Of a stretch of DNA of 33,060 nt, positions 12,641 to 25,211 are shown in pieces. Position numbers and translations under genes: made by a program. The notes under the pieces were generated by a model. The model did no database searches. It was not told where the DNA came from and saw only the letters and a program-made list of their open reading frames with translations. The stretch is from Verrucomicrobiota bacterium (lineage in GTDB: Bacteria; Verrucomicrobiota; Verrucomicrobiia; Opitutales; Puniceicoccaceae): the NCBI GenBank assembly GCA_038744685.1, contig JBCDMB010000032.1, positions 1 through 33,060 on the forward strand, given 5' to 3'. The stretch's first letter is position 1, and each line of letters opens with the position of its first letter.

Positions 12641-13831
12641 TCAATTCTTCGGCATCGGGATTTTGATCCCCTTGCGTAAGAACGTCGGCTTATCGAGATC
12701 AACGCCGTTGTAGTCTTCCACGTCGAGGCGGCCAAACAGGCCCCGTTCGTTGTGCTCAAGAAGACTGTCGAACTCCGTCTGCAGCTTCTCCTTGGAGGCC
12801 TTCTTTTTCTTGTCCAACTTGGAAGGGTGAACCATCACTTTCTCAAACCGGCGTTCTGGAATCGGTGTTTCCGAAAGGTAAGTTCGGGCAAAAACGCTCA
12901 CTTCAATAGAGTCTCCAAGCGATTCCTCCTCCCACAACCCGACCACTGCCTCCTCCCGTGAACTGAACAGACTCGTGACCGCATCAGCAATTTCCGAAAA
13001 GTCTGCAACTGATAGACCACCTCCGGTTCCGACACTCACCAACAATCGATCCGCCTTCACCCGATCGATCCCAGCTGAGCGAAACGGGCACTCAAAGAGC
13101 GATTTCTTGAGAGCATCCAACCCTGCAGAATACGATACCCGACAGGTAGAGAAGTGCATCCGGTTGACATCCCCTTTCAAAGCCGAACGGAAGGTAGCCA
13201 GATCGACAGACATCGTTCCTGGCCGAAACATCGGACCCAACAACCCAAAAACGGCTCGACCAACCCAGCTATCGGAAACCTCGAAGAGCTGGTCTGCCCG
13301 ATCCGACTCATTCGTCTCCTGAAAAAGGAGGTCATTGGGCAAAACAACGACGCAGTCCGAACCTCGCCGAACCTCGGACAAGGCGTTCTTAGCAACTTGA
13401 GACGGCCTCTTTCCTTCAAATTCAAAAGGGGTGGAAACGATTGAAACCGTCGGTGTTCCTGTTTCCCCGGCCATGCTGGCAACTGCCGGTAATGCCCCGG
13501 AAGCGAACCCTCGTCCCAGACATCCAACCAGGACGATCAGTCCATAACCGTGAAGGATATCTGATATCTGGTTTCGGTCACTGTCTGCAGCCAGCCGGCC
13601 CATTTCCTCATCGCCACCACAACCCAATCCTCTCATGAGGGCACGACCCAATCGGTAGGTTTCTAAGTCTATATACCTTTCAAGATCGCGGACATCGGTA
13701 TCGAAGCCAAAAACGTCTACGCCATCTGGTTTCTCAAGTCGAAAACGGTCCACTACGCGAAGACCCCCTCCTCCAATTCCGACGACACAGGCGCGGGTGT
13801 GTTTGTCCTCTCTATTCCCTTCGTGCATCAA
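12641..13831 (-). CDS. ftsZ: Divergent FtsZ cell-division GTPase homologue
   Basis: A 396-residue tubulin-fold protein in the ftsZ position, 6 bp after ftsA. FtsZ-like marks are CVVGIGGGGLRVVDRF (residues 15-30), FGFDTDVRDL (the NTDAQAL strand), GRLAADSD, STPFEFEGKR and VVLPNDLL. Two catalytic elements are changed. The GGGTGTGAAP loop that binds GTP phosphates reads GCLGRGFASGALP (103-115). The T7 loop NxDFAD reads SVDLAT (208-213), keeping only the first Asp. The C-terminal peptide DKPTFLRKGIKIP, the usual docking site for FtsA, is intact. It probably still forms division filaments with altered or weak GTPase activity; this is an inference. Confidence 0.88.
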   Translation of the reverse strand: MMHEGNREDKHTRACVVGIGGGGLRVVDRFRLEKPDGVDVFGFDTDVRDLERYIDLETYRLGRALMRGLGCGGDEEMGRLAADSDRNQISDILHGYGLIVLVGCLGRGFASGALPAVASMAGETGTPTVSIVSTPFEFEGKRPSQVAKNALSEVRRGSDCVVVLPNDLLFQETNESDRADQLFEVSDSWVGRAVFGLLGPMFRPGTMSVDLATFRSALKGDVNRMHFSTCRVSYSAGLDALKKSLFECPFRSAGIDRVKADRLLVSVGTGGGLSVADFSEIADAVTSLFSSREEAVVGLWEEESLGDSIEVSVFARTYLSETPIPERRFEKVMVHPSKLDKKKKASKEKLQTEFDSLLEHNERGLFGRLDVEDYNGVDLDKPTFLRKGIKIPMPKN

Positions 13832-13837
13832 AGTGAC

Positions 13838-15043
13838 TCAGCGAAACAATCGTGAAAACTTCTTCACGACGCCAGTGGACTTTTGCCTACTCTGGTAGCC
13901 CATCCGATCGGTCTGCCCCTCAAGCGCGTAGTGCAGGACCCCCAACACCGTGCTGAATTCGACTCCCCGCAGCTCATCGGCAACCCATTCAGGATTCTCG
14001 GCGACGCGAGACGGGAAGCCAAACACCCGTTCGGCAAGAGAACTACAACGCTGAAGCCTCGCTCCTCCTCCCGTCAATAATGACCTAACGGCCCCGGACT
14101 TTAACTCCGACTGCCCGCACTCCGATCGAATCAGTTCAAAGAGCTCCTCCATCCTCACCTCCAGAATGCGATTGATGGAAGACGCGTACAACGACTTGTC
14201 GCCGATCTTCAAATCTCCATAGAGATGGTGGGTCCTCCCCTTGTCTTCCGGTAAAACGGTCGCGGATCCGTGCTTGATCTTAAGGTCTTCAGCACCATCA
14301 CGAACAATCCGTAGCCCCACCGACAGATCGTTCGTTAGATGTTCTCCACCCACTGGAATCGAACCTGTCCTGACAATACAGCCCTTACGGTAAAACGCAT
14401 AATCGGTTGTTCCACGGCCGAGATCGACAACCAAACAACCCGCTTTCTTCTCTTCCTCAGTCGCGACCATGCAGGCAGATGCTACACTGGCTACGATCAC
14501 ATCTTCCACTTTGATGTTTTGACTGTTTACCACGTGGATATGCTCCGCGACAGCTTGCGCGTCACCATGGAGAAGCCAATACGTCACTCCCAGTTCCTCC
14601 CCTTCGAAACCGACTGGGTTCTCAATCAACCTGCCGTCCAGCAAATAATGGTTCCGGATGAAGTGTATGAACAAACGATCTGCCGAAATCTCTTTTCCCT
14701 TTGCCTCCGCATTGACCCGATCTACATCCGAGACGGCGACCCGATTATCCGGGCTGCGAACGCGAGTGGTGGCAGGATGAGAAAGACCTTCAAGATGGGG
14801 TCCGGCAACAGCGAGGTAGGCACTTTCAATATTGGCCCCGGCACTCTGCTCGGCCAGATCCAATGCTTCACCCACCCGATCACTTGCCTCTCGAAAATTA
14901 ACAACCCGACCTTTAGTGACTCCACTTGATTCGACCTGACTACGCCCGATAATGTTCAGGCTCTCATCGTCAAAGATCTCGCCAACAAGAACTTTGACCT
15001 CCTCGCTGCCAATTTCGATCGCTGCAACAACCCTTCCTGACAT
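13838..15043 (-). CDS. ftsA: Cell division protein FtsA
   Basis: A 401-residue actin-like ATPase that tethers FtsZ filaments to the membrane. Visible marks are the phosphate-1 loop AAIEIGSEEVKVLVGEI (Glu where most FtsA have Asp), the 1C-domain region SAYLAVAG, the phosphate-2 loop CLVVDLGRGTTDYAFY and the adenosine motif SLLTGGGARL near residue 325. The last residues, VVKKFSRLFR, form the amphipathic membrane-binding helix. It sits between ftsQ and ftsZ as in most dcw clusters, with 83 bp after ftsQ that may hold a promoter. The partner FtsZ is divergent but keeps the FtsA-binding tail. Confidence 0.95.
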   Translation of the reverse strand: MSGRVVAAIEIGSEEVKVLVGEIFDDESLNIIGRSQVESSGVTKGRVVNFREASDRVGEALDLAEQSAGANIESAYLAVAGPHLEGLSHPATTRVRSPDNRVAVSDVDRVNAEAKGKEISADRLFIHFIRNHYLLDGRLIENPVGFEGEELGVTYWLLHGDAQAVAEHIHVVNSQNIKVEDVIVASVASACMVATEEEKKAGCLVVDLGRGTTDYAFYRKGCIVRTGSIPVGGEHLTNDLSVGLRIVRDGAEDLKIKHGSATVLPEDKGRTHHLYGDLKIGDKSLYASSINRILEVRMEELFELIRSECGQSELKSGAVRSLLTGGGARLQRCSSLAERVFGFPSRVAENPEWVADELRGVEFSTVLGVLHYALEGQTDRMGYQSRQKSTGVVKKFSRLFR

Positions 15044-15126: not shown

Positions 15127-16041
15127 TCATGATCCTCGGTTTCCACCCCAACTATCGAAAACCGGCACAGACTCATCGAAGCGAAGATCCACTCTGCTTA
15201 GCTTGTCGTATCCCTGGTCCCGAGTCAGGGTAATGATATCCTGGAGCCTCAGCAATTGTTCAGAGAATTCATCAGTTCCAAAAAGAATTTCGCTTACATT
15301 CGTCGCTCGCACACGGATTGCGGAAAAAGAAGCTGCAGGGTCCGCGTCGTACAGTGAAAGATCAACGATTCTCCATGATCCGAATAGATCCGGGAAAGAG
15401 GTCTGCGCGAGCTCCACGAGATCGGCAACACGCCGAAAGCCGGGGACCGGAGCATAACCACGAGGAGTCTCCACCAGACTGGTTCCTGTGACAAAGGGCA
15501 TTCGCCGAACCTCACGGGCCTCACGCCCGATTCCTGGAAAAATGGTCCCATCACGGGCGACAAAAACTGTCTCAGCGGTATTTCCCTCTCCCTGAACACG
15601 AAGCCTCAAAACCGGACGATGTTCGACAATTCGAACTTGAAGGGTTTCCGGGAACTTTCGTCGAACGACACAACTTTGGACTTGCGGATGAGATTCGATC
15701 TGTTCGCGCAGACGAAAGATATCCGTCTGCAATAGAGATGCCCCTTCAACCAGATCCAGCCGATCAAGGAGCCAATCTTTGCTAAGTGACCCGTCCGTCT
15801 CGAACGAGATCTGCTCGATCGTGAACTCAGGCCCAGAGCCGAGGATTCGCTCAGGTTCGAATAGGAGCAAATACGACAAGAAAATTAAAGCTACGGAGAA
15901 ACAGACAGCCCCGGCCCAAACAATAAAAGTCTTTCCCTTGCCTCTTCTTCGGGCAGCGGGAGGCCGCGCCACATTCTGCTGAATACTTTTCCAAGACCGG
16001 ACACGGGCCGGGCCTGAAGAACTAGGCCTGCGACGACTCAT
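15127..16041 (-). CDS. ftsQ: Cell division protein FtsQ
   Basis: A 304-residue bitopic membrane protein of the divisome. A basic N-terminal cytoplasmic segment (SRRRPSS..ARRRGKGK) precedes one membrane helix at about residues 38-60. It is followed by the POTRA domain (IEQISFETDGSLSKDWLLDR onward to VVRRKFPETLQVRIVEHRP) and an FtsQ beta domain. The VRRKFPxTL.V.I.EH..V motif is typical of the family. It should scaffold FtsB/FtsL and the septal synthase. The start ATG overlaps the ddl stop by 4 bases, so the two are translationally coupled. Confidence 0.92.
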   Translation of the reverse strand: MSRRRPSSSGPARVRSWKSIQQNVARPPAARRRGKGKTFIVWAGAVCFSVALIFLSYLLLFEPERILGSGPEFTIEQISFETDGSLSKDWLLDRLDLVEGASLLQTDIFRLREQIESHPQVQSCVVRRKFPETLQVRIVEHRPVLRLRVQGEGNTAETVFVARDGTIFPGIGREAREVRRMPFVTGTSLVETPRGYAPVPGFRRVADLVELAQTSFPDLFGSWRIVDLSLYDADPAASFSAIRVRATNVSEILFGTDEFSEQLLRLQDIITLTRDQGYDKLSRVDLRFDESVPVFDSWGGNRGS

Positions 16042-16964
16042 GTCTCGCGAAGTTGAAATCTATCCAACGCTGGGCTCACCATCTCTAAAACAAGATCCTC
16101 GAAAGAAAGACCGCGACAGGAAGCACTTTTTGGAAGAAGACTTTCAGAGGTAAGCCCCGGTAACGAATTGATCTCGAGAAACACCGGTCCCGATTCACCC
16201 AGCCGAAAGTCGACCCTTGCAAAGTCACGGCACCCACAGGCCGTAAAGACGGCCTCAGCGGAGTTTCGTATGGAGGATTCTTCTGAGGAGGACAATACCG
16301 CCGGCGCACGATAAACCGTCTTTCCTGAGGTATACTTATGAGTGTAGTCGTATACTCCTCCATCGGGAATGATTTCTACAATTCCCATTGCGGAACCATT
16401 GAGGACTCCAACCGAAAGTTCTCTTCCCTCAATATAGGTCTCGAAAAGCCAGCGGCGCTCGGTGAGGCTTGAAAGACATTCCTCCAACTCGGCCAACCCG
16501 TTTACGATGGAAAGGAAGGCACTACTACCTGAATCCACCGGCTTAATGACCACCCGAGGTCCGAGCTTCTCAACGATCTCTCTTGCAGTGGGGATATCGG
16601 ATTTCGAAAAAACCAACCCCTTTGCACCCGGAACGCCCATTTCAGCCGCACGGGCTTTCGAGAGTGCTTTATCCATACAGACAGAACTCGAATCGGAGTC
16701 AGACCCAACGTAGTCGAAATCCGCGTCTTCCAGAAGTTTCTGCAACTTGCCGTCTTCTCCAAATTCACCGTGAAGTGCCGGAAACACTACGCCCTTTTTC
16801 GGATTCATCCCGTCAGGCAAAGAAGCTTCGGTGACCTCGATGCCAACTACCCCTTCCCGATTTCCAAGACAATCTAGCACACTTTTCCCAGACCTAAGTG
16901 AAACCTCTCGTTCCGGTCCAACACCACCGTAGAGAACAAATATTTGGGGCATTTCTCTGTTCAT
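16038..16964 (-). CDS. ddl: D-alanine--D-alanine ligase
   Basis: A 308-residue ATP-grasp ligase that makes the D-Ala-D-Ala dipeptide of peptidoglycan. Marks are FVLYGGVGPEREVSLRSGKS at the N-terminus (the GG.S.E..VS motif), PALHGEFGEDGKLQ, VVIKPVDSGSSAFLSIV, FETYIEGRELSVGVL and the end of the active site ARVDFRL..SGPVFLEINSLPGLT. The frame is open to 17069, but I start at ATG 16964, where an ATGA overlap with the end of murC/B gives coupling and the protein begins at the family's usual position. The protein is cytoplasmic and feeds MurF. Confidence 0.96.
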   Translation of the reverse strand: MNREMPQIFVLYGGVGPEREVSLRSGKSVLDCLGNREGVVGIEVTEASLPDGMNPKKGVVFPALHGEFGEDGKLQKLLEDADFDYVGSDSDSSSVCMDKALSKARAAEMGVPGAKGLVFSKSDIPTAREIVEKLGPRVVIKPVDSGSSAFLSIVNGLAELEECLSSLTERRWLFETYIEGRELSVGVLNGSAMGIVEIIPDGGVYDYTHKYTSGKTVYRAPAVLSSSEESSIRNSAEAVFTACGCRDFARVDFRLGESGPVFLEINSLPGLTSESLLPKSASCRGLSFEDLVLEMVSPALDRFQLRET

Positions 16965-19186
16965 GGCCCAGCCTCCCGATTCATCGATAATGGTGGAAGG
17001 GGCTCTATGAATCCATGCCGGCCGACAAATTTTACCTCTGGTTCCAACGTAACTCCAGTCTCCTCCCAAACCTTTTGCCGGACGGCCGCCATCAATTCCA
17101 CCATTTCCAATGCACTCGCATCAACCTGGGGAGTTGCGAAGTTCGCATGTTTCTCAGAGATCATCGCTCCACCTACGGAGAAGCCCTTAAGGCCTGTAAG
17201 ATCGATCAGTCGACCCGCAGAATCCCCGTCGGGATTTCGGAAAAGACAACCTGCACTCGGCCCACCTGGCTGGGCCAAACGACGGCGCAAGGCATAATCT
17301 TTCATTTCACTCCTGATAGCTTCCGGACTCTCTCTTCCCAGGGGTTTCAAAACTGCCTGAATTATGCAGAGCCCCTCCAACTGAGGGCAAGACCGATACC
17401 CGAAATCAAGAGATTTGCGGGAAAGGCTGATTCTCTTTCCTGTTTTATCCAGAGTATCCACCCGAACCACCCGGTCACCAATCCAGCCACCCATTGAGCC
17501 AGCATTCATCCGAAGTGCTCCTCCGACCGTTCCCGGAATTCCTTCACCAAACGAGAATCCGCTCAACCCCTCTCCAGCGGCCCAGCGAGCCAATCTGGGA
17601 AGGGCCAGCCCTGCTCCCAAGACCACTTCCCCGGTCTCCTCGTGGTAAGCAACCTTCTCCCACGGACTTCCAGCGAGGTGAATTGCAAGCCCTTCGAAGC
17701 CTTCGTCCGTTACAAGGATGTTCGAGCCATTTCCCAGATAAACGATAGGCAACTCCAAAAGACGGGCCGTCCGCAATAACCACCCTAGCTCTGCTACACT
17801 ACCGGGACGCGCCAGAATCGAGGCATTTCCCCCTAATCTCATCGTGGTGTAGGGAGCCAAGGGTTGATCCTTTGTCATATCTGAGCTGCGAAGAACAGTC
17901 CTTCCCAGATCAACCAATGCATCGGTCCGTGACTTCGAATTGCTAAGCACCGCCTGAAGAGGCGCCCAGTCGTTTGCGTCACCAGCGCCTACAAAGGCAA
18001 AAGTACCCTCACGTTTTGGAAAGTCATCCAGAAAACGGGCGTGACCCACACGAACACCTCGCTGCTCAAGCCCAGACCGAATCAGCGCGAGCGGATCCGT
18101 CTCCACATCCAGCGTCTCGCCCGCGCCGTAGATGGAATGCAGGTAAACTTCCGTTAAACCGGAAAGTGCCTCGACAAACTCGTCTACAAAACGAGTTGTC
18201 CGGCTAAACCGGTGCGGCTGAAAAAAGACCCGAAGCGGCTGAGGCAAGTCCTGTGCGTCCAACCATGCGAGAAAAGCCGACACCTCGCGCGGATGGTGTG
18301 CATAGTCCTCAACAACGGCAAACTCACGGTCCTTTCGATGAAAAGTCTGGCGTCTCCAGACTCCGGGAAAACCGTTCAGCGCCGAATCTGATAGATCCTG
18401 ACCAGAGGCTACTCGATAGGCCGTCTCCGCTGCCGAAACGTTTCTTTTGAGAAAATTGCCCTGATTGGGAAAGTAGACTCGATCTCCGTCAAAATCCCAA
18501 TCTGAAATCCAGTCTTTCTCATCATCATCGAGAGAGGTCAGGTCCGGTAGAATCAACGAACCAGTCGAACGTTCAGCCAAACGTTTCCAAGCTGCTCTCA
18601 TTTGGCCTCGATCCTTATATCGATCCGTGTGGTCCCAGTCAAAATTCAGAAAGAGAGTCACCTCCGGCGAAAAACTCTCAATCGTTCCGTCGCTTTCATC
18701 GATCTCTGCGATCAGCCACTCCCTTCCCCCGTTACGGGAAGGCGTCAAGGCACCCTCGGGAAGACCGCCTACAACATAGTCTGCCGACCACCCTTCCCGC
18801 TCAGCAAGAAATGCCAATAGGGCACTTGTAGTTGTTTTACCATGACTTCCTGCAACAGCCATCAATCGATAATCTCTGGCAAGTTCAGCTAGAAGCTCCC
18901 CTCTTCGGATCACTGGAATATCAAGCCCTTTGGACTCCAGCTCTCTGTACAACCAATGCCCTGGGAGTATTGCGCTTGAAACCACAATTCGGTCCAGTCC
19001 GTCGGGAATCGCAAAGAGTTCACTGATCTCGACCCCAGCGTCCTCCAAAAGATGCTCCCCTCTAGGCGTAAGATTGTCATCAAAACCGGATACCCGAGCT
19101 CCGCCTGCCCTAGCAAACAAAGCAAGGGGAAGCATTCCCATGCCACCAATGCCGACGAAGAAGAGAGACTGACCAGAGAGACTCAT
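16961..19186 (-). CDS. murC-murB: MurC-MurB fusion: UDP-MurNAc--L-alanine ligase and UDP-enolpyruvyl-GlcNAc reductase
   Basis: One 741-residue protein. Residues 1 to ~430 are MurC: FVGIGGMGMLPLALFARAGG at the start, the ATP-binding AGSHGKTTTSALLAF near 115, AEIDESDGT, NFDWDHTD and VVEDYAHHP. From ~440 it is MurB, an FAD enzyme: PYTTMRLGGNA, YLGNGSNILV, FGEGIPGTVGGALRMNAGS, and GCLFRNPDGDSAGRLID with Cys in place of the more common catalytic Ser, ending EPEVKFVG with the catalytic Glu. It therefore carries the step making UDP-MurNAc and the addition of the first amino acid in one chain. It overlaps murG and ddl by 4 bases each. Confidence 0.96.
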   Translation of the reverse strand: MSLSGQSLFFVGIGGMGMLPLALFARAGGARVSGFDDNLTPRGEHLLEDAGVEISELFAIPDGLDRIVVSSAILPGHWLYRELESKGLDIPVIRRGELLAELARDYRLMAVAGSHGKTTTSALLAFLAEREGWSADYVVGGLPEGALTPSRNGGREWLIAEIDESDGTIESFSPEVTLFLNFDWDHTDRYKDRGQMRAAWKRLAERSTGSLILPDLTSLDDDEKDWISDWDFDGDRVYFPNQGNFLKRNVSAAETAYRVASGQDLSDSALNGFPGVWRRQTFHRKDREFAVVEDYAHHPREVSAFLAWLDAQDLPQPLRVFFQPHRFSRTTRFVDEFVEALSGLTEVYLHSIYGAGETLDVETDPLALIRSGLEQRGVRVGHARFLDDFPKREGTFAFVGAGDANDWAPLQAVLSNSKSRTDALVDLGRTVLRSSDMTKDQPLAPYTTMRLGGNASILARPGSVAELGWLLRTARLLELPIVYLGNGSNILVTDEGFEGLAIHLAGSPWEKVAYHEETGEVVLGAGLALPRLARWAAGEGLSGFSFGEGIPGTVGGALRMNAGSMGGWIGDRVVRVDTLDKTGKRISLSRKSLDFGYRSCPQLEGLCIIQAVLKPLGRESPEAIRSEMKDYALRRRLAQPGGPSAGCLFRNPDGDSAGRLIDLTGLKGFSVGGAMISEKHANFATPQVDASALEMVELMAAVRQKVWEETGVTLEPEVKFVGRHGFIEPLPPLSMNREAGP

Positions 19187-20298
19187 GAATGTTCTTCAAG
19201 GCTTCTTTGTCCTTCGGCCAGAGACTCAAGATCATCAATGAGTTCCTTCTGCCGATTCAAGGTCTCCAACCGCGCCAGCTGAATGCGTATCTCCTCGAGT
19301 CTGGCCTCATCCCTCAGGAGACTTAGGACCACCTTCTCCAATTGATCGATTTCCTCCTGTACAAGAACAAGACAACCTCCTTCTTCGGAGAAATAGCGCG
19401 CATTGAATAGCTGGTGATCGTCCGCGGCAGAAGGAAACGGAACCAGAACTGAGGGAACCTTACACCGAGTCAATTCAGCGATAGAACCTGCTCCAGCCCG
19501 GGATATCACGAGGTCAGATGCCGAAAGCGCCTGCGGCATTTGATCACAAAAATCGATATTCAAGACCCTGTACGTCTCTCCGTCGACCGCCGTTATCGTC
19601 GGCGATTCATCCCGCCCCTTGGACAGCCCACGGATGCAAAGAATGTTCACGCCCTCGCCTAATAGTGCCGAACCCTTTTCGTCTACCCATTCGTTTAGAG
19701 AGCTAGCTCCCTGGCTGCCCCCAAAAACCGTTACAAGTAGACCCCTTTTTTCCAAACCCATTTCTTCTCGGGCCAACGCCTTATCGAGAACGCCGAAACC
19801 CTTTCGGAGGGGATATCCAAAGTCGCGAACCTTTTCTTCTGGATACCCGGGTAGAGACACTTTGGGCGGAAGGTAGATACGACAGGCAAAACGTTTCAGA
19901 AAGCGAATCGCCCGCCCCGGCACTCGATTAGCCTCATGCAAGACGACTGGTATTCCCCTAAGGCGGGCCGCAAAAACCACTCCAACCGAGAGAAACCCGC
20001 CAAAAGCCAACACGAGGTCTGGTTTCTCATTTCTAACGAAAGCAAGACCCTGCCTCAGGGATCGAACGAGTCCTATACAAAATCGAACGATCTCACGGGG
20101 CTTTTTTCCGAACGCGACTCCATCACTCCGAAAAAAACGGAGCGTCTCATGCTTTCGAATCAATCGCGAATCCACCTGCTTTCTGCTGATGACAAGTCCG
20201 CAATGATGGCCGCGGCTGACTAGTTCCTCGGCAACGGCAACTCCCGGAGCGAGGTGTCCTCCCGTTCCACCACAGGCGATCAGAAAGGTGCGGGCCAT
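19183..20298 (-). CDS. murG: UDP-GlcNAc--lipid I GlcNAc transferase MurG
   Basis: A 371-residue GT28 glycosyltransferase that adds GlcNAc to lipid I to give lipid II at the inner face of the membrane. The N-terminal CGGTGGHLAPGVAVAEELVS loop is diagnostic, followed by LAFGGFLSVGVVFAARLRGI and VVLHEANRVPGRA. The donor-binding domain shows VFGGSQGASSLNEWV and, later, LVISRAGAGSIAELTRCKVP and LVPFPSAADDHQLFNAR. It starts 2 bp after ftsW and overlaps the MurC/B start by 4 bases. Confidence 0.97.
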   Translation of the reverse strand: MARTFLIACGGTGGHLAPGVAVAEELVSRGHHCGLVISRKQVDSRLIRKHETLRFFRSDGVAFGKKPREIVRFCIGLVRSLRQGLAFVRNEKPDLVLAFGGFLSVGVVFAARLRGIPVVLHEANRVPGRAIRFLKRFACRIYLPPKVSLPGYPEEKVRDFGYPLRKGFGVLDKALAREEMGLEKRGLLVTVFGGSQGASSLNEWVDEKGSALLGEGVNILCIRGLSKGRDESPTITAVDGETYRVLNIDFCDQMPQALSASDLVISRAGAGSIAELTRCKVPSVLVPFPSAADDHQLFNARYFSEEGGCLVLVQEEIDQLEKVVLSLLRDEARLEEIRIQLARLETLNRQKELIDDLESLAEGQRSLEEHS

Positions 20299-20300
20299 TT

Positions 20301-21452
20301 TTACTCTATTTCCACCGGACGTCGAATAACGGGTCCCTCCCAGTCACGAAAAGTACTTAATATAAACCCTGTAATTATTCCCATCACAACTAGGTTGGAT
20401 CCCCCGTAGCTTAGAAAAGGAAGAGACATACCCTTTGTGGGCAGTAGACCCGTCACCACACCCATGTTGATCGTGGCCTGACCTATCACGAAAAGGAGGG
20501 CTCCGAAAACAAAAGTGAATTGAAACAAGTCCGGGGCCTTTCGGATCTGGGAGAGCGCAAGAACCGTGAAGAGAACGAAAAGCAAAACCACCCCTCCTGT
20601 GGCGAAGAACCCAAGCTCCTCACCCACAACTGCAAAAATGAAATCCGTATGCGCCTCCGGAAGAAAACTCAGATGCTGGCGACCACGGCCAGGGCCAGCA
20701 CCATCCATCCCGCCTACGCTAAAGCCAAGAATGCCCTGCCACAGCTGATAGCCACCGTCGGTTCGATGGCCTTCAGGATCGAGGAACGAAGTTACGCGCT
20801 CCAGCCGTTCCGGATCTCGCAGGACCAAAATGGTAAATCCCACCACCGAAGCACAACCAGCAAGCAAAAGCCCTCCAAACGGAGTCCCCGCAGCAAGAAG
20901 GATTGCACCCGCAACAGCCATGTAGAGAACCGTTGTTCCCAAATCAGGTTCGAGAATCAGAAGGACAGCAAACGGTGCCACGAGGGCTGCAGGGACAAGA
21001 AAACCGGGTAGAAAATGGTCCATTTGGCGCCCATTTCTCGCCACATACCAAGCCAGCAGACAAAGGAAGCCAATCTTGGCAAATTCCGAGGACTGGAGTC
21101 GCATCGGACCCAAGTCAATCCACCGTCGGGCAGCATTCACCTCAATTCCAATTCCGGGAACCAAGACCACAACCAAAAGAACGATTGAAGCAACTACACC
21201 CGGGAGGACCAGCCTCCGCAATCGTGATACGCCGCAAAAAAATGCCGTCCCGCCCGCAATAATCGCCAGAAAAAACCAAACCAGCTGTCTCGCAAAATAG
21301 GTCCCAAGGAAACGGTCGGAGGATCCTCCTGCGCTGAAAAGCACGGTAAGCCCGACCGAAGTAAGTGCGAGGACACAGAGGATAAGCAACCACCCCCGGA
21401 TTGGAAATCTCCCGATGTTCTGCCAGCTACTGCTCAAAGGATTGCCCACCAA
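20301..21452 (-). CDS. ftsW: FtsW, septal peptidoglycan polymerase (SEDS family)
   Basis: A 383-residue polytopic membrane protein with about nine or ten hydrophobic helices. SEDS marks are SSEFAKIGFLCLLAWYVARN, ILEPDLGTTVLYMAVAGA with the catalytic Asp region, GYQLWQGILGFSVGGMDGAG, FLPEAHTDFIFAVVGEELGF and, near the end, GLLPTKGMSLPFLSYGGSNL. It polymerises lipid II with a partner class B PBP, which is not in this window. Its place right before murG and after a LysM gene identifies it as FtsW rather than RodA. A gap of 92 bp separates it from the LysM gene. Confidence 0.95.
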   Translation of the reverse strand: MVGNPLSSSWQNIGRFPIRGWLLILCVLALTSVGLTVLFSAGGSSDRFLGTYFARQLVWFFLAIIAGGTAFFCGVSRLRRLVLPGVVASIVLLVVVLVPGIGIEVNAARRWIDLGPMRLQSSEFAKIGFLCLLAWYVARNGRQMDHFLPGFLVPAALVAPFAVLLILEPDLGTTVLYMAVAGAILLAAGTPFGGLLLAGCASVVGFTILVLRDPERLERVTSFLDPEGHRTDGGYQLWQGILGFSVGGMDGAGPGRGRQHLSFLPEAHTDFIFAVVGEELGFFATGGVVLLFVLFTVLALSQIRKAPDLFQFTFVFGALLFVIGQATINMGVVTGLLPTKGMSLPFLSYGGSNLVVMGIITGFILSTFRDWEGPVIRRPVEIE

Positions 21453-22853: not shown

Positions 22854-24098
22854 TCAGGACTGAGATCCAGTCCTCAGGCCATCAACTAACTCCCGGAATT
22901 TGTCTCCCCGTTCCGAATATCCGGCAAACTGATCGAAGCTCGCGAATCCTGGACTCAGTAAAATAGTTCCTCCGCCACGTGAGTCCTCCAGCGCTGAGGA
23001 AAAAGCATTTTCCAAGGTCCCGGTGACGTAGACCGGAAGGCCGGCATCCTCCAACTTTTGCCCAAGTTCTGGCCCGATACTTCCGAAAACGTAGCCCGAT
23101 TCACATCGTTTCGCTAGGTCGCCGGAGAACCGCTCAAGATCTCCGCCCTTCGAAAGACCACCTCCTATCCAATAGATCGGAGGATCGGCCTCTTCACAGG
23201 ATGCGAGCACCGCGTGGAAGTTCGTTGCCTTCGAGTCATTGATAAAACGAACGCCGTCAATCACTCCCAAGTCCTCTTGGCGATGGGCGGAAGGCGAGAA
23301 TGAGTCCGAAGCTGCCCTAAGGACAGCTAAGTCACGGCCGGTATCCAACCAAAACGCTTCAGCAAGACCATACAATTGGGAAAACGGATGGCGGGCGAAC
23401 TGGCCTCCCCCGCCATTCGACGGTGATCCGGAGACCCATCGGATATCCTTGGGAAGCACAACACCGAATGCATACGCCGTCTCTTGCAACGAAGCAGGTG
23501 CGTAGACAACCGGAGCGTTTTCCACCAGCTTCCATTTTGCTTTGAAGTAACCGGCGAGAGAGGAGTGCCAATCGAGGTGGTCCTCCGCAAAATTTGTCCA
23601 GAAAGCGAAGTCTGGATGTGGATCTACCCAATCGTGAAGTTGAAACGAACTGGTTTCACAAACTGCCCAGTCCTCGTTCCTTCCCTCCTCTACGATGGAG
23701 CTCAGGGGGGTCCCAATATTCCCACAGGCAAGCGCCCGTTCGCCGTTTGCCAAAAGCGCGCTCTCCAAAAGCTGGGTGAGCGTCGTTTTACCATTAGTCC
23801 CGGTGATGCAGATCAGCTTTCCGGGCCAGAAAGAAGCCGCCAGTTGAATCTCCGCAATCAATTCAACTCCACTTTCCCTCGCAGCTTTCCTCCAAGAATG
23901 GTCTGGATGAAAACCAGGACTAACGACTCCCCATTGCCACTCCTTTGCTTTCGGATCAAACGTAAGGTGCGCGCCTTCCCGTCCTTTCTCGTCGAAAAGA
24001 ATCGGACGTGCATTCTGGCTTCTCAACAAGGCTGCGGCGGCTTTACCACTCATGCCGGCTCCCAAAACCGGAACTTCGCGGCCCGCCCAATCCATCAC
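22854..24098 (-). CDS. murD: UDP-MurNAc-L-alanine--D-glutamate ligase
   Basis: A 414-residue Mur ligase that adds D-Glu to UDP-MurNAc-L-Ala in the cytoplasm. Marks are the Rossmann-type VPVLGAGMSGKAAAALL start, the P-loop ICITGTNGKTTLTQLLES, CETSSFQLHD, TNFAEDHLDWHSSLAGYF, FINDSKATNFHAVLAS and GGLSKGGDL near the C-terminal domain. The length is a little under the usual 430-450. It starts 12 bp after mraY, so both should be on one transcript. Confidence 0.96.
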   Translation of the reverse strand: MMDWAGREVPVLGAGMSGKAAAALLRSQNARPILFDEKGREGAHLTFDPKAKEWQWGVVSPGFHPDHSWRKAARESGVELIAEIQLAASFWPGKLICITGTNGKTTLTQLLESALLANGERALACGNIGTPLSSIVEEGRNEDWAVCETSSFQLHDWVDPHPDFAFWTNFAEDHLDWHSSLAGYFKAKWKLVENAPVVYAPASLQETAYAFGVVLPKDIRWVSGSPSNGGGGQFARHPFSQLYGLAEAFWLDTGRDLAVLRAASDSFSPSAHRQEDLGVIDGVRFINDSKATNFHAVLASCEEADPPIYWIGGGLSKGGDLERFSGDLAKRCESGYVFGSIGPELGQKLEDAGLPVYVTGTLENAFSSALEDSRGGGTILLSPGFASFDQFAGYSERGDKFRELVDGLRTGSQS

Positions 24099-24110
24099 TT
24101 GAACAGATAG

Positions 24111-25211
24111 CTACCGCAACCGCAGCGATGCCAATCCAGCAATTGCGCAGAGTAAGGAAACAATCCAGAACCTGATCACAATCTTGTTCTCTGCCCAACC
24201 CTTGAGCTCAAAGTGATGGTGAATCGGTGCCATCAAAAAAATTCTCTTCCGCCGCGTCTTGTAAGATCCAACCTGCAAAATTACTGACCCGGCCTCGAAG
24301 ACAAAAATACCCCCCACGATAATCAGGGTGAGCGGTTGGTGGATGAGAAATGCTACCGTCCCGATCAGACCGCCAAGCGCAAGTGAACCCGTATCTCCCA
24401 TAAACACCTCCGCTGGATTCGCATTGAACCAGAGGAATCCGAGGCTCGCCCCGAGAAGGGCCGCACAGACCACCGCAAGCTCCTCCGTTCCCGGTAGATA
24501 GCTAATCAAGAGGTAGTCGGCAATGATCACGTTACCCGCGCAGTAGGCCATTATCCCAAACGCGAGAGCCGATGTGACCGTGCATCCAATCGCGAGGCCA
24601 TCGATCCCATCCGTTAAATTGATCGCGTTACTGGAACCCGCCAAAACCAGAAACAAAAACGGAAACAGGACCCAGAGCGGCAAAGACTCCACCGCAATAT
24701 CCTTGTAAAATGGAATCCACAGTTGGCGAACTGTTTCACTGGTCTCAGGATGGAGGAGAAGAATGGAAAGGACTACCGCGACAAGGATCGCCTGGCCAAG
24801 CAGTTTCAGTCGCCCGCTGATTCCATCCGCGTTCTTTTGAATGACTTTACGGTAATCGTCACCGAAACCGATAGCAGTGAGTCCGGCGTAAACAATCCAT
24901 GCCACAACGACGTAGACGTTAGGAACCGCGAAAAGGAAGAGAGAGAGCGAAATCGATCCGAAGAGAATTAGGCCGCCCATGGTCGGAGTGTCCTGTTTCC
25001 CCTGGTGCAAGACGGCAAGATGACCCACTTCCTCCTCACTCCTTCCCACCTCTCTCATCTTTAAACGCTTGAGAAACTCGATGATCCGAGGCCCGAAGAT
25101 CAGGGCGAAAAGAAACGAGAATAGGCCAGCGAGAACCGCTCGCACTGTGATAAACCCGAAAAGCCGGAGAGGCCCCCAGATCGAATCAAGATGTTCAAGA
25201 AAGGAGAGCAT
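24111..25211 (-). CDS. mraY: Phospho-MurNAc-pentapeptide transferase MraY
   Basis: A 366-residue polytopic membrane enzyme that transfers phospho-MurNAc-pentapeptide to undecaprenyl phosphate, giving lipid I. Diagnostic segments are HQGKQDTPTMGGLILFGSIS, GFGDDYRKVIQKNADGIS (the D-D-x-x-K motif), INLTDGIDGLAIG (catalytic NxxxxxDGxDGLA), NANPAEVFMGDTGSLALGGL and the cytosolic MAPIHHHFELKGWAE loop. Ten hydrophobic segments are visible. It is the first wall gene after the ribosomal block here; mraZ, rsmH, ftsI, murE and murF are not in this window. Confidence 0.97.
   Translation of the reverse strand: MLSFLEHLDSIWGPLRLFGFITVRAVLAGLFSFLFALIFGPRIIEFLKRLKMREVGRSEEEVGHLAVLHQGKQDTPTMGGLILFGSISLSLFLFAVPNVYVVVAWIVYAGLTAIGFGDDYRKVIQKNADGISGRLKLLGQAILVAVVLSILLLHPETSETVRQLWIPFYKDIAVESLPLWVLFPFLFLVLAGSSNAINLTDGIDGLAIGCTVTSALAFGIMAYCAGNVIIADYLLISYLPGTEELAVVCAALLGASLGFLWFNANPAEVFMGDTGSLALGGLIGTVAFLIHQPLTLIIVGGIFVFEAGSVILQVGSYKTRRKRIFLMAPIHHHFELKGWAENKIVIRFWIVSLLCAIAGLASLRLR

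Follow-up and report, generated by a model that had tools for sequence, protein, structure and literature searches.

In most bacteria, GTP-powered treadmilling of FtsZ is believed to organise cell division. The locus described here, from an Opitutales bacterium of the phylum Verrucomicrobiota, raises the question of whether bacterial division needs a GTP-burning ring, and the organism offers a natural test of that need. The DNA analysed is a stretch of 33,060 nucleotides (referred to here as the window), and its ftsZ encodes a protein with changes in both halves of the composite GTPase site. Our preferred explanation, to which we assign a probability of roughly 0.48, is that this protein is an FtsA-tethered scaffold whose nucleotide pocket is altered yet conserved and whose GTP turnover is very slow or absent. 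If its family lost the FtsZ motor under selection while FtsA was kept, the family would show whether division needs the scaffold or the motor.

An FtsZ orthologue in an intact dcw cluster

The gene and its neighbours lie on the minus strand, as follows:

12641..13828 (-): ftsZ orthologue whose GTPase site is altered; 395 aa from an ATG start (the ORF tool lists a TTG start at 13831)
12665..12700 (-): C-terminal docking peptide DLDKPTFLRKGI, FtsZ residues 377-388
13838..15043 (-): ftsA (261.5 bits against a curated cut-off of 175.85)
15127..16041 (-): ftsQ, POTRA domain
16038..17069 (-): ddl, D-Ala-D-Ala ligase
16961..19186 (-): murC-murB fusion
19183..20298 (-): murG (215.5 bits, under the curated cut-off of 250.25)
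20301..21452 (-): ftsW/rodA-type protein (ftsW score, 329.1 bits; cut-off, 337.5)
22854..24098 (-): murD
24111..25211 (-): mraY

The TTG codon would give an open reading frame at 12641-13831 (-) of 396 aa; the ATG at 13828 is the more likely start, because the homologous start is used in relatives. This start lies 9 bases after the ftsA stop; counted from it, residues throughout the pocket and the T7 loop have the same numbers as in E. coli FtsZ. The dcw cluster is intact and also holds a gene for a LysM protein, listed between ftsW and murD; a fusion of murC and murB is likewise reported for Verrucomicrobium spinosum (PMC12283558). Judged by eye, the C-terminal end of FtsA is basic and possibly amphipathic. 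Scans of the window retrieved one promoter (0.5 expected), four terminators (2.2 expected), and no tRNA.

Kinship with FtsZ is supported by a PF00091 score of 82.7 bits (cut-off, 33) and by a phmmer match to the B. subtilis FtsZ chain 2vam (3.1e-37). The equivalog model TIGR00065 gives 161 bits, short of its cut-off of 295.2; the three other members of the same family score 142 to 154, three members of a second divergent Opitutales family (f4) score 72 to 107, and four Opitutales FtsZs with an intact or near-intact T4 loop divide evenly, two passing (323 and 301) and two missing (291 and 270). Orthology is also supported by synteny and by the docking tail, which reads DLDKPTFLRKGIK. An initial reading of the sequence (the sequence-only reading) had held that the docking peptide is kept and that the gene directly follows ftsA, and both points proved correct. 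On sequence evidence, the protein is an FtsZ by descent that falls outside the canonical FtsZ GTPases. Separately, the linker encoded at 12700-12840, ahead of the docking peptide, carries a motif typical of the order, VHxSKL ... QxEF ... RGxF.

Modelling against known FtsZ structures, a check that had been suggested for this protein, yielded a predicted FtsZ fold. AlphaFold2, run on the window FtsZ with 30 relatives, gave a mean pLDDT of 81.9 and a pTM of 0.77, with 223 of 395 residues at ≥90 and stretches below 50 at residues 1-5 and beyond 323. The top Foldseek match was KpFtsZ (8h1o; TM by target, 0.90; rmsd, 2.0), and VIA-align superimposed the model on KpFtsZ with a Z score of 40.7 and an rmsd of 2.3 over 313 residues. 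The model speaks to the predicted fold rather than to the pocket.

One FtsZ found per genome

The genome that holds the window (G000) comprises 3.64 Mb in 56 contigs and is 97.8% complete. The window FtsZ belongs to a family, f1, known from this genome and three others (G001, G002, and G003; 96 to 99% complete). A PF00091 search returned a single match in each of the four, in every case the altered FtsZ. The sequence-only reading had allowed for another FtsZ elsewhere in the genome. None was retrieved: a profile built from 31 Opitutales FtsZs and run at E≤10 matched no gene in G000 other than the window ftsZ, which it matched in two pieces, and the Tubulin_2 model (PF13809, FtsZl-1) had no match at E≤0.1 in any of the seven f1 and f4 genomes, G000 included. 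A second FtsZ in the assembled genome was thus rejected.

With an assembly in 56 contigs that is 97.8% complete, a canonical FtsZ might sit in the missing part. We consider this barely credible, given the null result of the permissive profile search in G000 and the recurrence of one altered FtsZ in each of the three other genomes. A pseudogene or an assembly error was likewise rejected, since the gene has no internal stops, the same or nearly the same motif occurs in three further genomes, and synonymous sites are saturated.

Changes at the nucleotide-binding site

The altered positions discussed below are encoded as follows:

13193..13210 (-): T7 synergy loop, residues 207-212, SVDLAT (D209 kept; N207S and D212T)
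13403..13405 (-): Pro142, replacing the catalytic Arg (R143 in S. aureus FtsZ)
13496..13516 (-): phosphate loop T4 (residues 105-111), GRGFASG; canonical form, GGGTGTG
13688..13690 (-): Arg47, replacing the Gln by which K+ is locked in T7
13757..13759 (-): Arg24 of T1 (Asn in E. coli), invariant in f1

Counts across the phylum refer to 155 FtsZs, a nonrandom set made up of best matches and family representatives in which family f14 is over-represented. A second FtsZ in genome G187 (G187b), with all six key residues, is probably contamination and was excluded.

The altered phosphate loop that the sequence-only reading had described recurs across f1, as GRGFASG in three of the four genomes and as GKGFATG in the fourth; the window FtsZ also has Cys at residue 103. 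The tubulin signature [SAG]GGTG[SAT]G, found in T4 of 85/155 phylum FtsZs, is missing from the window FtsZ. T7 is altered relative to E. coli as well, and the claim of a change in each half of the composite site stands. Three changes lie beyond those previously listed, namely, R142P, Q47R, and N24R.

The roles of the catalytic Arg and of the K+-locking Gln come from a study of S. aureus FtsZ, in which D46, Q48, R143, N208, D210, and D213 are described as conserved residues that are key to assembly or hydrolysis (PMC8936486). These residues correspond to D45, Q47, R142, N207, D209, and D212 in E. coli. At these six positions the window FtsZ reads D R P S D T, retaining two (D45 and D209), and the three other f1 members read D R P (S, G, or T) D T. 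Across the 155 FtsZs, all six residues are kept in 18, five in 46, four in 32, three in 40, two in 14, one in 4, and none in 1. Pro142 is found in f1 alone (4/155). The substitutions N24R, N43D, Q47R, A70C, G103C, T108F, G109A, and R142P are fixed in f1. Kept in the window FtsZ are D45, G71, G105, G107, G111, E138, N165, F182, and D209, of which E138, N165, and F182 are, we take it, nucleotide-contacting residues.

By these comparisons of sequence, the T4 changes T108F, G109A, and G106R(K) combined with R142P are special to f1, where they occur in 4/4 genomes. We considered whether T108F is common by descent to f1 and f4. For the trees, f14 was capped and three f30 rows were dropped. On the FtsA tree (120 of 150 rows), each of the two families is well supported (SH-aLRT, 100) but their relation is not resolved, and T108F requires at least 5 changes. 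The FtsZ tree (97 rows, without phylum-level rows) has many long branches and does not join f1 with f4; on it, T108F requires at least 3 changes. A70C accompanies T108F in 9 of 12 rows with F108 and occurs in 16 of 143 others, a comparison uncorrected for kinship. T108F also recurs in distant groups (L108-L110 of family f51, L114 of G343, and L123 of G290), and in f51, as in f1, it goes together with loss of R142.

The T7 loop across the order

To our knowledge, NxDFAD is the rule in T7 outside Verrucomicrobiota; we checked it by sequence in E. coli FtsZ, whose residues 207-212 read NVDFAD, and in the B. subtilis chain. For the order, we used the best 80 of 529 confirmed loci, ranked by likeness to the window protein (L159-L238); these include one f1 member (L159) and overlap the sample of 155. 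Set A2 consists of the window and 30/31 nonredundant loci from the same best 80 of 529. D212 is replaced in 79 of these best 80 loci (by T in 54, A in 13, S in 10, M in 1, and H in 1; Asp in 1), with D209 retained as Asp in 79 and N207 as Asn in 78. An intact T4 can go with a replaced D212, as in the FtsZ of Cerasicoccus maritimus (T4, GGGTGSG; T7, NLDFAM) and in that of strain IMCC26134 (T7, NLDFAT). The description of the window T7 loop as SVDLAT holds for N207 and D212, although D209 is kept and the change of D212 is nearly order-wide, and the idea that the T7 change is special to this genome was rejected.

Within the 155 FtsZs, Asp occupies position 212 in 7/83 members of the order (76/83 changed). 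Both T7 aspartates are present in 5/83 order members, 17/46 other members of the class, and 6/26 other members of the phylum (28/155), and the opposite loss, of D209 with D212 kept, occurs in 17/46 of the other class members. Judged from these sequences, the T7 change is mostly common to the order, and the T4 and R142 changes belong to f1. A single early loss of D212 in the order would be the simplest history, though not the only one, because at least 17 changes at this position are needed on the FtsA tree and 7/83 order members have Asp. Low GTP turnover may be an order-wide trait, by analogy with the E. coli D212A mutant, which keeps 7% of GTPase activity (PMC8142252).

Selection on the pocket

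Among f1 pairs, synonymous differences are near saturation (pS, 0.67 to 0.80; pN, 0.15 to 0.38). The T4 codons vary at silent positions, and their residues are fixed save for one R/K and one S/T change. Because the motif is kept in four genomes while silent codon positions differ, the T4 change in f1 is, by this sequence comparison, not due to chance.

Conservation of the nucleotide pocket was assessed over 27 positions (a list compiled in part from general background) with a control of 305 circular shifts. In f1, 22/27 pocket positions are invariant compared to 40% of the core, and 0/305 shifts reach as high; with glycines left out, 13/16 are invariant (p=0.0002). The test was applied to 13 families, those with more than four rows being cut to four. 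Pocket conservation reached p<0.05 in 11, the exceptions being f4 (9/27, p=0.17, with 61/305 shifts as high) and f51 (21/27, p=0.066). On this measure f1, unlike f4, resembles an FtsZ with its pocket in use. The equivalent test of T7 does not discriminate, since in 12/13 families, f14, f8, f2, and f5 included, T7 is no more conserved than background; f1 has 4/10 (p=0.6), and f33 alone passes (10/10, p=0.006).

A further test took 49 FtsZs from families in which T4 is mostly intact and considered the positions where their residue is absent from every f1 row. The replaced residues are fixed within f1 at 9/11 pocket positions compared to 23/65 others (Fisher p=0.0065), and at 1/6 T7 positions; the corresponding figures for f4 are 4/14 in the pocket, 12/69 elsewhere (p=0.46), and 3/5 in T7. 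The f1 figures come from a small sample of four nonindependent sequences of one family. With synonymous sites at saturation and the replacements in the pocket fixed, the pocket of f1 appears both remodelled and conserved, which speaks against simple decay.

This conservation bears on two other explanations. The first is that GTP is hydrolysed at a useful rate by a changed chemistry and treadmilling continues, with D209 placing the water and Arg24, Arg47, and Arg106 replacing R142 and K+. Such a chemistry would fit the retention of D209, D45, E138, N165, F182, and G71, the presence in 4/4 f1 genomes of R24, R47, and Arg or Lys at 106, and the strong conservation of the pocket, also seen in families whose T4 is intact; the K+ of FtsZ has moreover been compared with the arginine finger of other GTPases (PMC8936486). 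T108F and G109A, however, place a bulky side chain in the phosphate loop, and single loss of R142, N207, or D212 is severe in S. aureus FtsZ (PMC8936486). We regard a working altered chemistry as unlikely, while giving it more weight than any other competitor of the scaffold.

The second is that the protein is a plain FtsA-binding adaptor that neither binds nucleotide nor forms FtsZ-type filaments. R143Q, N208L, and D213N each abolish assembly of S. aureus FtsZ (PMC8936486), and f4 illustrates that the pocket can decay while FtsA stays. In f1, however, the pocket is conserved much more strongly than the core around it, which would be unexpected if no ligand bound there, and we judge the adaptor improbable.

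The pace of evolution was expressed as the ratio of FtsZ to FtsA differences, for at most six pairs per family. The ratio is 1.26 to 1.97 in f1 and 1.43 to 1.55 in f4, as against 0.57 to 1.09 in the pairs shown of f5, f8, f11, f14, and f21; the contrast is graded, since f8, f11, and f21 reach about 1. Ratios above 1 also occur in f24 (1.66), which has T4 GGGTGGP and both T7 aspartates, in f17 (1.34 to 1.88), and in class-level families with canonical sites (f33, 1.20 to 1.81). Faster evolution of FtsZ than of FtsA would also be expected under relaxed constraint.

Several other families deserve mention in their own right. In four close pairs of f30 (L096 and L103-L106), the differences in FtsZ are about ten times those in FtsA, with 81 to 82% identity in the FtsZ core and 98% in FtsA. 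The FtsZ of f4 (L037, L038, and L039) is further decayed, with T4 reading GGGFSGG or AGGFAGG, N165 and F182 lost, and N207 changed to Ala; the docking tail and FtsA are kept, and the pocket is no more conserved than background. A class-level family from genomes of 2.2 to 2.5 Mb, f35 (L121, L122, and L125-L129; possibly Methylacidiphilales), has unusual T4 sequences, GGAMGSA and AGATGAT among them, and its T7 can be recognised only with difficulty.

Genomes of the order without FtsZ

Of 275 genomes of the order that are ≥80% complete, 48 have no PF00091 match. Rechecking 20 of these 48 with the FtsZ profile gave no match, and two of two positive controls were recovered. Some FtsZ-less calls are likely assembly gaps, e.g., that of G021, a 4.1-Mb genome congeneric with the FtsZ-bearing G039. 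FtsA scored over its cut-off in 9/9 tested genomes with FtsZ, including f1 (4/4) and f4, and in 1/12 tested of the 48 FtsZ-less genomes; in that one (G058), FtsZ may be missing from the assembly. In G036 (L255, 6798-13446), murG, murCB, ddl, and ftsQ are followed by GAPDH, with no ftsA or ftsZ. A MurG match was found in 7/10 tested FtsZ-less genomes; none scored at the curated cut-off, and neither does the MurG of the window. In Chlamydiota and Planctomycetota, ftsZ and ftsA are reported as lost jointly, with few exceptions for ftsA (PMC12283558). Because FtsA is kept beside the altered FtsZ and the two are elsewhere lost jointly, the evidence points to a working FtsA-FtsZ pair in the window organism.

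Two groups of FtsZ-less genomes were noted along the way. Nine reduced Opitutales genomes of 0.8 to 1.0 Mb (G009, G027, G031, G036, G044, G045, G060, G072, and G084) lack FtsZ and also FtsA over the cut-off; MurG was matched in 7/8 tested (not in G084; G072 is outside the eight) and MreB in 4/5 tested (G009, G027, G036, and G045; not in G031). The second group is G038 and G077 (f17, genus g18; 2.7 Mb in 3 contigs and 2.3 Mb in 1 contig, 95 to 96% complete), in which searches for FtsZ, MurG, and MraY gave no match and FtsA did not reach its cut-off. Their congener G019 has FtsZ, FtsA, MurG (just under the cut-off), and MraY, and G038 and G077 are perhaps a wall-less lineage.

The existence of order members without both FtsZ and FtsA raises the prospect that the window FtsZ is a relic on its way to loss and that MreB or wall enzymes divide the cell, as in Chlamydia. 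All four f1 genomes carry MreB, and FtsZ evolves fast there. A relic is, even so, hard to reconcile with a protein conserved at synonymous saturation, an altered motif that is fixed, and a docking tail and FtsA kept in 4/4 genomes, and we rate it as very improbable.

A broader proposal, which we put forward tentatively as possible rather than probable, is that the order switched off the FtsZ motor stepwise: D212 would have been lost early, f1 and f4 would afterwards have shed what remained of the GTPase and kept FtsZ and FtsA as a static scaffold, and reduced lineages would have dispensed with both proteins while keeping wall synthesis and MreB. Were this true, GTP-driven treadmilling would be dispensable for natural cell division, and a nonhydrolysing FtsZ would be a stepping stone toward division without FtsZ as in Chlamydiae and Planctomycetes. 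Since the order holds milder and more severe FtsZ changes as well as members without FtsZ, the origin of FtsZ-independent division in the PVC superphylum can be addressed by comparison and by purification of a few proteins.

A conserved scaffold as the preferred model

The scaffold model builds on the sequence changes, the single copy found, the synteny, the selection, and the predicted fold. In this model the window FtsZ would be the organism's one working FtsZ, with its fold and its FtsA-docking tail retained, and FtsA would recruit it to the membrane, where the machinery of septal wall synthesis would use it as a platform. Dismantling of the composite GTPase would have taken, most simply, two steps, the first being the loss of D212 early in the order. 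The second step, in f1, would have removed the arginine-finger-like R142 and the K+ ligands N207 and Q47 and altered T4 (T108F, G109A, and G106R/K). Because the altered pocket is under strong selection, it most likely still binds a ligand, either GTP or GDP, perhaps retained for as long as the filament lasts. The arginines at 24, 47, and 106 perhaps stand in for metal ions (K+) and for R142, which is a guess. GTP turnover would be very slow or absent, and constriction would be driven by wall synthesis, not by treadmilling.

Published mutants give this model some precedent. In S. aureus FtsZ, R143K and Q48A lower GTPase activity about sixfold and stabilise polymers (PMC8936486), and E. coli D212N is in use as a stable polymer (PMC12754632); the ftsZ84 strain discussed below points the same way. 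Given that R143Q, N208L, and D213N block assembly, either nature has compensated or the window protein forms no filaments; by analogy, it may be unable to polymerise at all. Some hydrolysis may also remain, because D209, which swings to place the water (PMC8936486), is kept in the window sequence.

Comparison with known FtsZ and tubulin systems

Canonical FtsZs (E. coli, B. subtilis, and S. aureus) resemble the window FtsZ in fold (Z of about 40), in the neighbouring ftsA, in the docking tail, and in D45, D209, E138, N165, and F182, and differ from it in the T4 signature, R142, N207, D212, Q47, and N24. Laboratory mutants (D212A/D212N, R143K/R143Q, N208L, and ftsZ84 G105S) are hit at the same sites or in the same loop, but in the window FtsZ several sites are changed together and appear to be kept by selection. 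The ftsZ84 strain divides at permissive temperature with 0.47 instead of 7 GTP per FtsZ per min, a deficit ascribed for the most part to weaker binding of GTP (higher Km; Vmax, 12 versus 17) (PMC4603965). A natural low-GTPase FtsZ is reported from "Candidatus Thiosymbion oneisti" (PMC8953583); this wild protein with weak GTPase activity comes from a gammaproteobacterium and would parallel the low turnover proposed for the window FtsZ.

Divergent FtsZs are already known from the same phylum. That of V. spinosum keeps the tubulin signature, as GGGTGSG (PMC1845146), and its ftsZ is essential (PMC12283558); ftsZ of Methylacidiphilum infernorum is described as under "accelerated evolution," with ftsA unaffected (PMC2474590), and verrucomicrobial FtsZ is placed among "the most divergent groups" (PMC9871819). 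The portions of the V. spinosum and M. infernorum papers available to us (PMC1845146 and PMC2474590) contained no residue-level loss of the catalytic site, and the available excerpts of the open-licence literature contained no report of D212 loss in Opitutales or of an FtsZ combining the f1 T4 with R142P.

Tubulin provides a further parallel. In beta-tubulin, K254 of T7 faces a GTP that is not hydrolysed. The position equivalent to D212 is nonacidic there, as in the window FtsZ, and the GTP that it faces need not be hydrolysed. In tubulin this holds for every second subunit, whereas in the window FtsZ it would apply to every subunit.
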